DNA of 33,695 nt, from the NCBI GenBank assembly GCA_014376445.1, contig JACMRM010000070.1, forward strand, positions 1 to 33,695. Direction: 5' to 3'. Both the position numbers and the translations under genes were made by a program. Of the stretch, positions 19,879 through 25,068 are shown piece by piece. Source of the stretch: Bacteriovorax sp. GTDB taxonomy: Bacteria; Bdellovibrionota; Bacteriovoracia; Bacteriovoracales; Bacteriovoracaceae. The notes under the pieces are model-generated. The model worked only from the letters and a program-made list of their open reading frames with translations, was not told the origin of the DNA and searched no databases. Position 1 is the stretch's first letter. Each line of letters starts with the position of its first letter.

Positions 19879-20826
19879 TTACGGATTGAGAGTAATCTCA
19901 CCGCCCTTATTTTTCAGGCCATTTAATAATTCAGTGTCAGTGCAGATTTTTTTTCCTTCTAACTGAACTTTCGTTAGTCGGATCGAGCAGTCAGAAAGGC
20001 CTACGGACAAAAATCCATGTTCGATGGAAGTTTCACCAGGCTTTAATATTCGTTGTAATTTTTCAATAGCATATACTTTCAAGCGCTGTGAGTTCAGGTA
20101 GCAGTAAGTTCCGGGCCACGGATCAAGCGCACGAACTTGATTATGAAGTTTTTTATAATCAGATTCTTTAAAGTTTAAAAATCCATCTTCTTTTTTTAAT
20201 GTCGGAGCGAAGCTTACATCAAAAGGATTTTGAGGTGTGAAAACCAATTTATTGTTTTGAATTTTTTCAATTAAAGCCTTTGTACTGATACCTGCCTGAA
20301 GTTTAAGTCGGTTGTATAAACTTTCTCCGTTTTCGTCAGGAGCAATATTAATCTCATCGAAGTGAACAAGGTCACCGGCATCCATTGTTTTTACCATCTT
20401 TTGAATTGAAACACCGGTCGATGAGTCGCCATTTAAAAGAGCGTATTGAATAGGTGCAGCCCCTCTATATTTTGGAAGAATAGAAGTGTGGATATTAAAA
20501 CAGCCAAGTTTTGGCATTGTCAAAACGCGTGAGCCTAAAAACTGAGCGAATGCTAAAACCAGATAAAAATCTATTTCCATGGTCTCAAGTTTCGTTAAAA
20601 TTTCTTCTTCGCGATTTATATTTTCAATCTGGAATAAGCGAATGTTGTGGGTCTTGGCAAACTCAGCAACGGGAGGAGATTTTAATTCCTGTCCACGGCC
20701 AGCAGGTCTGTCCGGCATAGTGATGACGCCGACGAGATTAATGGCCGGATTTTGATACAGCTCTTCAAGTGTGGGCACAGAAAAGTCAGGGGTCCCACAA
20801 AAAACAACGTTAAGTTTCTTAGTCAT
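19879..20826 (-). CDS. fmt: Methionyl-tRNA formyltransferase
   Basis: A 315-residue enzyme that formylates initiator Met-tRNA with 10-formyl-tetrahydrofolate before translation begins. The N-terminal domain has VVFCGTPDFSVPTL, and the active-site text FNIHTSILPKYRGAAPIQ with the conserved Asn and His, and TMDAGDLV. The C-terminal OB-like tRNA-binding domain contains VRALDPWPGTYCYL. Its ATG overlaps the def stop by one base (TAATG), the classic def-fmt pairing in which formyl is added and later removed. Length is normal. Confidence 0.97.
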   Translation of the reverse strand: MTKKLNVVFCGTPDFSVPTLEELYQNPAINLVGVITMPDRPAGRGQELKSPPVAEFAKTHNIRLFQIENINREEEILTKLETMEIDFYLVLAFAQFLGSRVLTMPKLGCFNIHTSILPKYRGAAPIQYALLNGDSSTGVSIQKMVKTMDAGDLVHFDEINIAPDENGESLYNRLKLQAGISTKALIEKIQNNKLVFTPQNPFDVSFAPTLKKEDGFLNFKESDYKKLHNQVRALDPWPGTYCYLNSQRLKVYAIEKLQRILKPGETSIEHGFLSVGLSDCSIRLTKVQLEGKKICTDTELLNGLKNKGGEITLNP

Positions 20827-21410
20827 TATTTCTTCTTTTGTTTTTTAAGGAATTTTTTCTCGATTAATTGTTTTTTTAAAAAACTAAGTCTTTCGATAAA
20901 AACAATTCCATCAAGATGGTCATTTTCGTGTTGAAGGCATACAGAGAGAAGTTCATCTGCTTCAATCTTGTGATGATTACCGAACATATCCTGGTATTCC
21001 ATTGTTACAAATTCAGCACGCTTCACATCTTCATAAACACCGGGGACGCTCAAGCATCCTTCTTCATGAATACTTTCACCGGATTTTTCTCTGAAGACAG
21101 GATTGATAACAACAATTGGCTTAAAGTCAAAATATCTATATTCTGTTATTCCATCAGGAAGAGTAACTTTTTCTCTTTCAAACTCTATGTCCATAACAAA
21201 CATTCTGATGCTCACGCCAACCTGTGGAGCGGCGAGGCCAATTCCAGGTGCATGGTACATAGTATAAAACATGTCTTTGATAAGACTTCTAAGTTCATCA
21301 TTAAATTCAGTAACCGGAGCGGCCACCTTTTTCAGGATTGGAGCAGGATAGGTTGAAATAGGAAGCTTTGTGCCAACTAATTCATAATTTTCTAAAAAGT
21401 TCTCTTTCAT
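20826..21410 (-). CDS. def: Peptide deformylase
   Basis: A 194-residue metalloprotease-fold enzyme that removes the N-formyl group from new proteins. All three family motifs are present: GIGLAAPQVG, EGCLSVPG (metal Cys) and QHENDHLDG (the HExxH pair of His and catalytic Glu). About 16 residues precede the usual I-x-x-YPAPIL start; the ATG has no well-spaced ribosome site but no better in-frame start is seen. The C-terminus is Lys-rich (KKQLIEKKFLKKQKKK). It precedes and is translationally coupled to fmt and follows lptF/G by 19 bases. Confidence 0.97.
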   Translation of the reverse strand: MKENFLENYELVGTKLPISTYPAPILKKVAAPVTEFNDELRSLIKDMFYTMYHAPGIGLAAPQVGVSIRMFVMDIEFEREKVTLPDGITEYRYFDFKPIVVINPVFREKSGESIHEEGCLSVPGVYEDVKRAEFVTMEYQDMFGNHHKIEADELLSVCLQHENDHLDGIVFIERLSFLKKQLIEKKFLKKQKKK

Positions 21411-21429: not shown

Positions 21430-22533
21430 TCAACGCAATTTGCGATGGTAAATAAAATAGAAAGAAAGGTAGATAACAAACAAAGACGGTACACCAAAAG
21501 TGGCGACTACCGCTGGGATTTTGCTGGTTTGCCCTAAGGTCATAAAATACGAATAAACAAACCAATAGATAAAAGTGAAACTTAATACAAAAGCAATGTT
21601 TGATCCGAACGAGCTGTTTCTGCGGTTAGGATTAAACAGTGCCACAGAAGCAAGAATAGCGAGTACTAAACAAGTAAAACCTGAAGAAAACTTGTCGAGA
21701 AAGGTTACAAAATACTCACTATCATTGATTCCATTCGTGCGTAAAACAGCGATGTAATCATACAGACGCCAGATATTCAGCGTAGAAATATCAGCGTTGA
21801 TTTTTTTAAAATCATTTATTGTTTCTTTTAGTGGAAAAATTTTTTCATGAAACGGGCTGGGCTCAGGAAAAGTTTTATTCTCCAGATTTGTTACATGCAT
21901 TCCCTTATTTAAAAGCCATGAATTTCCTTCAATATACTTTGCTGAGTCTGCAGTAACTTCTTCAGAGAATTTAAAACTGGTATTGTAATAATAAAGTGAA
22001 AGATCATAGATAATATTTTTTTTATCGTCGAACGAGCTATATGAAAAGAAGTAATCTTGTCCTTTAAACCAAATTCGACCGGATTTCATGGCATTAATTG
22101 AGACGGAGCTGTTCTTTGCTTTGCGGACAATCGATGGAATATTTGTCATTTCTGATTGCTGATGTTTTGTATAGGGAACCAGATAGCCGTTGATGAAAAA
22201 TAGCGTGGTTCCAACTATTGCGCCGATGATCCCGATACAAAGAACAAACTGTCTTCTCGAAAACCCGCTGGCAAATATGGCCGTCAGCTCGTTTCGGCTT
22301 TTTAATTTGTTAATTGAGAATAGAGAAGCAATCAGGCAGGACACCGGAAAAATCCTGATCAAGAATGTCGGAATTTCCAATGCCAGGTCGATAAGAATAT
22401 TTCTTATCTCGTTGGTTGCTTTCAAGAGACCGGTTAAAATTTGTCCTAATGAAAGAACCATCAACAGGATAAACACGGCACCAAAAAAAAATGTAAGCCA
22501 TTCTTTAAGAATGAGTTTTCTTATCGTGAACAT
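21430..22533 (-). CDS. LptF/LptG family permease
   Basis: A 367-residue protein with the YjgP/YjgQ layout: two membrane spans, a Leu-Lys-Ser-Arg-Asn-Glu loop (LKSRNELTAIFASGFSRRQF), a third span, a periplasmic beta region (about 130-260) and three C-terminal spans. LptF and LptG form the inner-membrane channel of the LPS transporter with LptB, which drives lipopolysaccharide towards LptA and the outer surface. The sequence does not let me decide between F and G; the partner is not in the window. AAGG precedes the ATG, and its 5' end overlaps the upstream CFI-box-like gene by 29 bases. Confidence 0.9.
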   Translation of the reverse strand: MFTIRKLILKEWLTFFFGAVFILLMVLSLGQILTGLLKATNEIRNILIDLALEIPTFLIRIFPVSCLIASLFSINKLKSRNELTAIFASGFSRRQFVLCIGIIGAIVGTTLFFINGYLVPYTKHQQSEMTNIPSIVRKAKNSSVSINAMKSGRIWFKGQDYFFSYSSFDDKKNIIYDLSLYYYNTSFKFSEEVTADSAKYIEGNSWLLNKGMHVTNLENKTFPEPSPFHEKIFPLKETINDFKKINADISTLNIWRLYDYIAVLRTNGINDSEYFVTFLDKFSSGFTCLVLAILASVALFNPNRRNSSFGSNIAFVLSFTFIYWFVYSYFMTLGQTSKIPAVVATFGVPSLFVIYLSFYFIYHRKLR

Positions 22534-23242
22534 AAGACCTTATGAAAAAAACAAAAGTTGATAGAGTCGGACGCGCCACTAAAGAATTGAAAAGAAATTT
22601 TATCTTAGGTCGTTTTTCCAGCGATTCAACCAAAGCAGGAGAAAAAGAATAATAGAAGTCTATGAAATCCATGCCGAGATTGTATTTAGAGATTTTCATT
22701 TTGAAACGCCGAAGCACTTCAGTTTTCTCATCTTCAAAACCAAAACACATCGTTGCAACATAACAGCGTTTCGCACTGATCTGGATCTTGTGATAAGCAG
22801 CCTCAAAAGCTTTTATATTGTGAGCTTGCTTTTTATTGATGAATTTACGAATGATCTGAGCATTGACGTGTTGATATTTGAAGCCGATTGAAAATTTCAT
22901 AAATTGATCTAAACATCTGAAGCAGTCACGCTGAAGATTCGGGCTTCGGTCGTAAGCTTTCGCAAGATCCCAGTAAGCGTGGCTGATCAGTAGTAGCTCA
23001 GTCATATCTTTTACCGCGTTAAAGAGGGTGGGAGTCAGGCGGTCTTCTGTTGTATCGAAGTATAGAGCGAGAATACCAAGATATTTATTGTAGGAGTCCA
23101 CGGCCTGGGCCATGCGGTCTTCCTTAACAAATACCTGTGCACGCTTCAGGTGAGTCAGACGCGTTCGATAGAGCTCAACAACTTGCTCTCTTTTTTTCTC
23201 GTCTTTTAAATCTTTAGCGTCCGTTTTTTTCTTGATTGCCAA
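22505..23242 (-). CDS. Protein with a CFI-box-like C-terminal domain
   Basis: Function unknown. The 245-residue product begins with a Lys/Asp/Glu-rich stretch and has a helical, TPR-like middle part (about 20-125: repeated Leu, Tyr and Ala, as in AQAVDSYNKYLGIL). From about 157 it shows CYVATMCFG, then VLRRFKM, GMDFIDFYYSFSPALVESLEKRP, matching the order and spacing of the CFI-box C-terminal domain (Cys-Phe/Tyr-Ile/Val-Ala-Thr ... Leu-Arg-x-Phe-Arg ... Tyr-Tyr-x-x-Ser-Pro). The start is TTG (23240-23242) with AAGGA ending 7 bases before it; this ribosome site overlaps the upstream stop. It lies in the lpt-def-fmt-rpe operon, overlapping lptF/G. Confidence 0.75.
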   Translation of the reverse strand: MAIKKKTDAKDLKDEKKREQVVELYRTRLTHLKRAQVFVKEDRMAQAVDSYNKYLGILALYFDTTEDRLTPTLFNAVKDMTELLLISHAYWDLAKAYDRSPNLQRDCFRCLDQFMKFSIGFKYQHVNAQIIRKFINKKQAHNIKAFEAAYHKIQISAKRCYVATMCFGFEDEKTEVLRRFKMKISKYNLGMDFIDFYYSFSPALVESLEKRPKIKFLFNSLVARPTLSTFVFFIRSYVHDKKTHS

Positions 23243-23251
23243 TGCTGATCC

Positions 23252-24133
23252 TTAGAATCTTAATGAAACGCCAAAAGAAGCTTCTCTCATTTTTGTTTCG
23301 TTTCTAGCTAAAGCTGGACTCGCTTTTTGTTTTGTTTGTTTAAGCGCAAATTCAAATCCAAGACGTGGTGTGACCCAGCCAAGACCAAATGCATTTCCTT
23401 TTTCTTCCTGCTCTTTATCGTTGAAGCCACCAAATCGAAGGAAAAAATCTTCGAGAACTCTTACTTGAATGCTTCCACGATATAAAAGTGAATTTGAAAT
23501 TTCTTCTGCATTATAATTTCCACCGAGATCAAAAGAAACTGTTATGGCATCAACGAAAGCATGCTGAACACCGATGATTGCTTTTGTTGCCTTTCCCTTA
23601 GAGTTGAAAGCATCATAAGCAACAAGTCCAAGAGATGTTGTCTGATCAAGTGCATGAGTTAATCCAAAAACTGTTTGATAGTAATCAACTCTTTCACCTG
23701 TTAAAGAGTTTTCATCTTTTGTTTTACGGAAGCTTACACCAAAAGCATTTTTAGTGTCGAGTTGTGAAGAAGTCTGAAGACCCCAGCGCTTTCTGGAAAG
23801 AACGCCTTCTTCCTGCTTCACATAACTAAGTGACCCGCTCAGACTCTGATTTCCATCAGTGAGAACAACTCCCGTATTTTTCGGTTTTTGAACTACTTTT
23901 CCGGCCGCGTCTTTAAACTGAATCATGTCTCTTTGCACATAAACATCACCAACGGTGAAAAATGATAAGCTTGCCGGGTTTAAGAATGCGGCTTCTTCCA
24001 TGAAGATTCCGGAAACTCCCGTTCCTGCTTGAGATTTAAGGTGTGTAGTTTCGAACTCATGAATCTTTGCAAAAGCAAAGTTGGACGTGAGCACTATTGC
24101 CAAAAAAAAAGTTGTTTTGATTTGATTGCGAAT
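23252..24133 (-). CDS. Outer-membrane beta-barrel protein of unknown function, possible AUU start
   Basis: Lead gene of the six-gene operon. From residue ~25 on the product is strand-like, with Gly/Ala/Asn patches (GLQTSSQLDTKNAFGVSFRK) and a C-terminal Phe (ASFGVSLRF), as in outer-membrane barrels with an N-terminal plug-like part. No ATG, GTG or CTG lies in frame at the 5' end. TTG 24101-24103 would give MAIVLTSNFAFAK, a signal peptide with no positive charge and no ribosome site. Reading upstream gives IRNQIKTTFFLAIVLTSNFAFA, a textbook signal peptide, where the first ATT (24131-24133) stands 9 bases after AAGGA (24147-24143). I therefore show the AUU start, 293 residues; the TTG start would give 283. 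A run of nine T (24102-24110) lies in this signal-peptide segment. Function and partner unknown. Confidence 0.65.
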   Translation of the reverse strand: MRNQIKTTFFLAIVLTSNFAFAKIHEFETTHLKSQAGTGVSGIFMEEAAFLNPASLSFFTVGDVYVQRDMIQFKDAAGKVVQKPKNTGVVLTDGNQSLSGSLSYVKQEEGVLSRKRWGLQTSSQLDTKNAFGVSFRKTKDENSLTGERVDYYQTVFGLTHALDQTTSLGLVAYDAFNSKGKATKAIIGVQHAFVDAITVSFDLGGNYNAEEISNSLLYRGSIQVRVLEDFFLRFGGFNDKEQEEKGNAFGLGWVTPRLGFEFALKQTKQKASPALARNETKMREASFGVSLRF

Positions 24134-24154
24134 GTTACTAATTCCTTTTAAAAT
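24126..24154 (+). promoter_or_regulatory. Candidate sigma-70 promoter of galU
   Basis: TTGCGA at 24126-24131 (4 of 6), an exact 17-base spacer and TAAAAT at 24149-24154 (5 of 6). The start of transcription would be near 24161, leaving a short leader containing AAGAGGA (24167-24173) before the ATG at 24181. On the opposite strand this overlaps the 5' end of the divergent barrel gene. Confidence 0.5.
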
Positions 24155-24180
24155 TAATGTCAGCTTAAGAGGAAATTATA

Positions 24181-25068
24181 ATGAAGATAAGACGAGCCGT
24201 CATCCCTGTTGCAGGAAAAGGCACAAGATTTTTACCGGCGACCAAACAAACACCCAAGGAAATGATTCCGATCATTAACTTGCCAATGATCCATTACGTG
24301 GTTGAAGAAGCAATTTCGTCGGGTATTGAGCAAGTTATTTTTATAACTTCATCGGGCAAACACGCTGTTGAAGATTATTTTGATCGCAATTTTGAGTTGG
24401 AAGATTTTTTAATAAAAAATGGAAAAATTAAAGAGCTTGAACTGATTCAAAAAATCGGAAAAATGGTTGAAGTTACTTCTATCCGCCAAAAAGAGCAGCT
24501 TGGTTTAGGCCACGCCGTTTTAATGGCGAAAGATTTAGTCGGCAACGAGCCGTTCGCTGTTATCCTTGGTGATGAAATTGTAAGAGGTCCGCATCCGGTG
24601 ACTAAGCAGCTGATTGATGTGGCAAAAAAAAATAACGGTGCCAACGTCATCGGTGTAATGGAAATCGATCCGATGGAAACTTACAAGTATGGTATTGTAA
24701 AAGGTGATTATATCCCTGGTTCGAAAACAACCATGAGAATGAACACGATGGTTGAGAAACCAAAACCAGCTGATGCGCCCTCAAACCTGGCGACTCCCGG
24801 CAGGTATGTTTTTCGTTCAGAAATTTTTGATGCGCTCAAAGTTATTCCCAAAGGTGTCGGTGGAGAATATCAGCTGACGGATGCAATCAATCTTCTGGCC
24901 AGAGAAAGTGAAGTCTATGCTCATATATTTGACGGTGAAAGATTTGATACGGGAAACATTGAAGGGTATTTGAATGCAACAATCGAATTCGCATTGATGA
25001 ATAAAGACTCTGAAGCGATGATGAGAAAACTGATTAAAGAAAAAGTAGAAAAATATAAAATTAAATAG
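24181..25068 (+). CDS. galU: UTP-glucose-1-phosphate uridylyltransferase
   Basis: A 295-residue nucleotidyltransferase that makes UDP-glucose from UTP and glucose 1-phosphate for LPS, capsule and galactose metabolism. The N-terminal GAGKGTRFLPATK-type signature is here VAGKGTRFLPATKQTPKEMIPI, with GLGHAVLMAK, the Asp-containing VILGDEIV and VEKPKPADAPS (the catalytic Lys-Pro region), ending with GGEYQLTDAIN. Length is standard. A strong ribosome site is present. It fits the envelope-building theme of the divergent lptF/G operon; the small secreted-protein gene follows after 9 bases and priA after that. Confidence 0.97.
   Translation: MKIRRAVIPVAGKGTRFLPATKQTPKEMIPIINLPMIHYVVEEAISSGIEQVIFITSSGKHAVEDYFDRNFELEDFLIKNGKIKELELIQKIGKMVEVTSIRQKEQLGLGHAVLMAKDLVGNEPFAVILGDEIVRGPHPVTKQLIDVAKKNNGANVIGVMEIDPMETYKYGIVKGDYIPGSKTTMRMNTMVEKPKPADAPSNLATPGRYVFRSEIFDALKVIPKGVGGEYQLTDAINLLARESEVYAHIFDGERFDTGNIEGYLNATIEFALMNKDSEAMMRKLIKEKVEKYKIK

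Follow-up and report, generated by a model that had tools for sequence, protein, structure and literature searches.

The window analysed here is the whole 33,695-nucleotide stretch of contig JACMRM010000070.1 (assembly GCA_014376445.1, Bacteriovorax sp.). On its minus strand a gene for an outer-membrane barrel protein (23252..24133) is followed by hyp245 (22505..23242, 245 aa, TTG start), an lptF/lptG-type permease gene (21430..22533; PF03739, 1.3e-58), def for peptide deformylase (20826..21410; PF01327, 1.2e-51), fmt for methionyl-tRNA formyltransferase (19879..20826; PF00551, 2.2e-33, and PF02911) and rpe. A galU-like nucleotidyltransferase gene (24181..25068, plus strand; Pfam PF00483, 2.6e-33) diverges from the barrel gene. 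The preliminary description had placed the barrel gene at the head of an operon with def and fmt, and this operon is real and conserved: the order from the barrel gene through hyp245, lptF and def to fmt is retained in nine of ten named loci (L033-L041) and also in L062 and L079, while the tenth named locus, L042, ends within the barrel gene. Both def and fmt have ATG starts of their own.

The barrel gene encodes 293 residues. The predicted structure of the protein (pLDDT 88.7) is an outer-membrane beta-barrel, and a Foldseek search with this model returned FadL (E 7e-12) as well as OmpG, BamG chains and, from the type 9 secretion system, PorV, at 10-14% identity, the labels PorV and BamG of single chains being taken in part from entry titles. 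Curated profiles do not name it. The sole Pfam match, Porin_4, scores 16.1 bits against a cut-off of 27, the window protein has no NCBIfam match, and among 29 members of the family one matches the BamG model and one the PorV_fam (PorV/PorQ) model, both weakly. Judged by the predicted model, the product is a FadL/PorV-like outer-membrane barrel.

The reading frame of this gene has no usable ATG, GTG or TTG. It opens at an ATT (24131..24133, minus strand), which leads through RNQIKTTFFLAIVLTSNFAFA into an open frame that stops at 23252. The first 22 residues (24133-24068), with residue 1 read as Met if AUU is the start, form a normal signal peptide, IRNQIKTTFFLAIVLTSNFAFA. The Shine-Dalgarno (SD) sequence AAGGA (24143..24147, minus strand) lies 9 nt upstream of the AUU, with a duplex energy of -5.8 kcal/mol and a GGA that is invariant in 13/13 genomes. 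The coordinates and anatomy given in the preliminary description, including the signal peptide that appears when the frame is read further upstream, are correct. Its statement that the region holds no ATG, GTG or CTG stands in so far as none is usable, but it is not literally true, since an in-frame CTG (24163-24161) and an in-frame GTG (24094-24092) exist. The CTG lies upstream of the ATT, lacks a ribosome site and is unconserved, several relatives having an in-frame stop between its position and the ATT; the GTG falls within the hydrophobic core of the signal peptide and is likewise unconserved. The ORF caller had chosen a TTG (24101..24103, minus strand), which the preliminary description considered a poor start because it yields a signal peptide without a charged n-region and has no ribosome site. 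We agree, and add that it is unconserved, being absent from G009, G003, G008, G012 and others. As alternative starts, TTG 24103, CTG 24163 and the ATC at codon 5 (ACC in G013) were ruled out by non-conservation.

The SD is AAGGA or GGGA at 9 nt spacing, and its energies in the clade genomes without an ATG (n=11) are -4.2 to -5.8 kcal/mol. In a background of 189 ATG genes, with a median of -4.0, some two thirds have a weaker site than the window; these energies were computed against what we take to be the anti-SD tail. The SD is thus moderate and would offset a weak codon only in part.

A search for the barrel gene gave a match in 71 of 116 genomes, including all 14 of the genus, and the group's named records belong to Bacteriovorax sp. 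or are Bacteriovoracaceae MAGs. The start region was read in 65 of the 71, namely the 14 genus genomes, 16 others and 35 further ones, leaving aside two split matches (G014, G037) and four weak distant ones (G083, G090, G097, G112). An alignment of orthologs, the check that the preliminary description had proposed, places an in-frame ATT in ten genus genomes (G000, G001, G003, G004, G006, G007, G008, G009, G012, G013) and an ATG at exactly the aligned codon in two (G002, G005). G011, the genus member that is outgroup to the other 13, has an ATG in register. Loci of other genera have an in-frame ATG in 16/16 and 33/35 cases, the remaining two using TTG. In G066 and G021 (L099, L107; another genus) the stretch that was read has only TTG and GTG, with no in-frame ATG, and AGGA stands upstream of the TTG.

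In a tree of the mature protein with the 14 genus members and seven outgroups, every one of the latter with ATG, the 13 genomes other than G011 form a single clade (support 100/99), and G002 and G005 are nested within it beside G001 and G013 (92/97). With G010 set apart, the most parsimonious history on this tree has two steps, a change from ATG to ATT on the branch leading to the clade and a reversion. Comparison of the sequences shows, then, where the AUU stands, that it arose once from ATG and that it has persisted; the reversion in G002 and G005 indicates that their lineage can tolerate a strong start. A change from AUG to AUU is extremely rare: a published reconstruction counted one among 61,358 ancestral AUG starts (PMC5622118).

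We consider it nearly certain, from these alignments, that the AUU at 24133, rather than the TTG or an upstream codon, is the translation start. The rival view is that TTG 24103 or another internal codon starts translation and that the conserved upstream block is only a DNA or RNA signal; TTG is a permitted start codon and the block is indeed constrained at the DNA level, as described below. Against it, the TTG shows neither conservation nor a ribosome site, the ATG of G002 and G005 stands at the place of the ATT, and the R/S/H-N-x-I/T-K register at the N-terminus is retained in all genus genomes but G010, which makes an internal start highly improbable. A sequencing or assembly error would be conceivable in a draft genome of 284 contigs, but the identical ATT in ten separate genomes excludes it for practical purposes.

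The exception is G010. Its conserved block (ATTCGCAATC) sits one base out of frame relative to the protein, and ATTCGCAA is retained despite this displacement. In the frame of the protein, a stop lies immediately 5' of the ribosome site, and ATG, GTG and TTG are all absent ahead of the mature protein. The sole near-cognate in-frame codon at ribosome-site distance is an ATA, 7 nt after AAGGA and 2 nt 5' of the former ATT, from which the product would be MFAIYSKNLFIAFFLLSATLANA. The one-base shift falls at a T-run (L005 1480-1484; L035 around 6000), and the other genes compared on the 12.9 kb record of G010 are in frame. Either G010 has really shifted to an AUA start or the T-run contains a one-base sequencing error; its start is non-canonical under both alternatives. 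If the shift is real, a block kept out of frame would serve as a DNA signal; an error would put the block back in frame and remove this argument.

Ribosomes of this genus read such codons elsewhere. The gene infC was located in 12 of the 14 genus genomes and starts with ATT or ATC in 12/12 loci found (L043-L054), so that the parallel with infC drawn in the preliminary description is apt. In nine of the twelve, ATT ATT or ATT ATC opens the frame immediately behind a stop, without any canonical codon before the IF3 body; in the other three an ATT or ATC occupies that position, with an in-frame GTG or TTG upstream. We also screened 40 stretches of 20 kb from G003 and G009 for AUH starts. This yielded 245 ortholog pairs, of which 220 were tested (24 were short or divergent and one was without any aligned canonical codon). 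Seven candidate rows emerged, and after sorting by eye only infC and the barrel gene were left without a canonical start, the other five being dismissed as misaligned, as having a nearby ATG or as internal sites. An earlier, looser screen gave 40 rows from the 245 pairs and was likewise sorted by eye. Among 207 pairs whose starts were picked with ATG favoured by a bonus, both members had ATG in 183 and a non-ATG codon in 19, while three pairs were mixed and two had no start. Within the operon, hyp245 starts with TTG (9) or GTG (4) in 13/13 clade genomes and never with ATG; it has ATG in G011 and, read by eye, in many outgroups. The pattern suggests that low output of the operon's first two genes is either selected or tolerated.

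Two features that go beyond the preliminary description concern the DNA itself: codons 1-7 of the barrel gene are conserved at silent sites, and the start overlaps a predicted promoter of the divergent galU. In 11 genomes (without G005, G010 and G011), among columns in which at least nine share an amino acid, a single codon is used in 6/6 columns of the first eight codons and in 2/137 of the remainder (Fisher p 2.6e-9). Across 13 genomes, column identity averages 0.945 over codons 1-7, 0.70 over codons 8-19 and 0.73 in the leader from -38 to -19. The idea that the 21-base block is a regulon motif was rejected. A search for it, allowing at most 3 mismatches, found it at the barrel locus in 12 of 13 genomes searched, G011 having only two unrelated 3-mismatch sites. 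Other matches were mostly A-rich with 3 mismatches, and the reversed control gave fewer of them.

A scan of 23900-24300 found exactly two sigma70-like sites, with 0.8 expected in shuffles. The first, the predicted galU promoter P1 (24126..24154, plus strand; TTGCGA-17-TAAAAT, 9/12 consensus positions), has a -35 hexamer that ends on AUU base 3 and also takes in codon 2 plus two bases of codon 3. The second, a sigma70-type site predicted to drive the barrel operon (24175..24203, minus strand; ATGACG-17-TATAAT, 10/12), has its -35 within galU codons 6-8 and a -10 that abuts the galU ATG. These galU codons (GCC GTC ATC; window 24198-24203) are free of silent variation in 13/13 genus genomes, apparently owing to the barrel-promoter -35 box that lies in them; GTC ATC is unvaried in 12/12 of the family set, and Fisher p for the 14-codon galU stretch is about 0.02 in both sets. 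Judged by consensus only, P1 is conserved with a -35 and a -10 at 17 nt, within the range of 16-18 nt: all 11 clade genomes without ATG have TTG[C/T]GA-17-TAAA[A/G]T, and the -10 columns are nearly invariant between variable leader stretches. G002 and G005, which start with ATG, have TTGCTC-17-TAAAAT and have lost the last -35 bases. The best-scoring galU promoter candidate in 7/13 clade genomes is CTGACA-18-TATGAT, deeper inside the barrel gene; these cross-genome scores use assumed promoter weights. The predicted overlap of P1 with the AUU may be cause or by-product, or the two together.

We propose that the AUU at 24133 would be decoded as formyl-Met by initiator tRNA, that IF3 would discriminate against it, and that the resulting weak initiation would keep the level of the barrel protein low. 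The codon may be held in place partly because its third base, together with codons 2-3, would form the galU -35 element, so that a change to ATG would cost galU transcription. As a whole, a weak AUU start that keeps barrel synthesis low, with the promoter overlap helping to hold it, is our preferred explanation, with a probability of about 0.7. Its parts differ in strength. Low-level translation is probably a selected or tolerated consequence of the AUU. That the overlap contributes to its retention is possible, with the odds somewhat against it: a single base of the start codon lies inside the -35 box, P1 of G013 scores below that of the ATG pair G002/G005 (8.6 and 8.72), and the candidate deeper inside the barrel gene outscores P1 in 7/13 clade genomes.

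A stronger role of the promoter is conceivable, in which the AUU has no regulatory value and is a trapped state: the galU -35 settled on the start, and loss of the ATG was tolerated at low demand for the barrel. The DNA-level constraint over codons 1-7, the P1 hexamers, the loss of the last -35 bases (TTGCTC) that accompanies reversion to ATG and the block that G010 keeps out of frame are all consistent with such a state. Yet the overlap amounts to one base and reversion to one event, the weak starts of hyp245 are unexplained by a galU promoter, and G010 has an ATA where an ATG was possible without touching the -35 hexamer. Low translation fits this last observation better than a promoter lock does, and we regard the trapped state as unlikely. 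A dual-coded AUU, acting at once as weak IF3-sensitive start and as part of the galU -35, with the barrel promoter embedded in galU codons 6-8, seems to us equally doubtful. If true, the two start regions would constrain each other, and synthesis of an envelope protein and of UDP-sugar would be balanced through shared bases.

By analogy the AUU should keep barrel synthesis low and IF3-sensitive; real IF3-dependent regulation of the barrel gene is a further step, which we think rather unlikely. Somewhat less likely still is the wider form, in which output of the barrel operon, perhaps including def and fmt via polarity, follows IF3 activity. In its favour, AUU is a codon of infC, which here starts with AUU or AUC, and def and fmt lie within the operon. 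Against it, G002 (L037) has the identical operon with an ATG start, so that a link to def and fmt does not explain the AUU; these two genes start with their own ATG; and no RNA structure was found at the start, 0/4 folded leaders being clearly better than their own shuffles and a leader alignment of six sequences giving no covarying pairs. The control link to def and fmt suggested by the preliminary description has thus gained no positive evidence.

An ORF caller restricted to ATG, GTG and TTG truncates the barrel gene within its signal peptide. The clade combines a single gain, a single reversion and a probable AUA shift, and offers a natural series in which selection for low output, response to IF3 and forcing by overlapping promoters may be separated as causes of weak starts. 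In the literature that we searched, we found no case of an overlapping promoter that keeps a start codon non-canonical, and nothing on AUU start codons in Bdellovibrio.

Among known systems, the AUU, AUC and AUA starts of infC resemble that of the barrel gene: in both, a ribosome site accompanies a near-cognate AUH codon, with conservation across many species. They differ in that the infC product is itself an initiation factor, whereas the barrel gene encodes an outer-membrane protein without known feedback. Outside infC, conserved non-canonical starts like that of the barrel gene are described for cvfC1 (AUU) and ccpN (AUA) of S. aureus, which give about 10% of the output of an AUG reporter in poor medium; these starts have extended SD pairing and ribosome profiling behind them (PMC13009471), whereas the SD of the barrel gene is moderate and its start is predicted from sequence comparison. 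In Streptomyces the GTC start of sigR is repressed by IF3 and sets a low protein level (PMC5472188). Both sigR and the barrel gene have non-canonical starts, but sigR encodes a regulatory protein, uses another codon and has had the effect of IF3 tested (PMC5472188). As to the product, the barrel protein shares its fold with the FadL/PorV/BamG superfamily, at a sequence identity of 10-14%.
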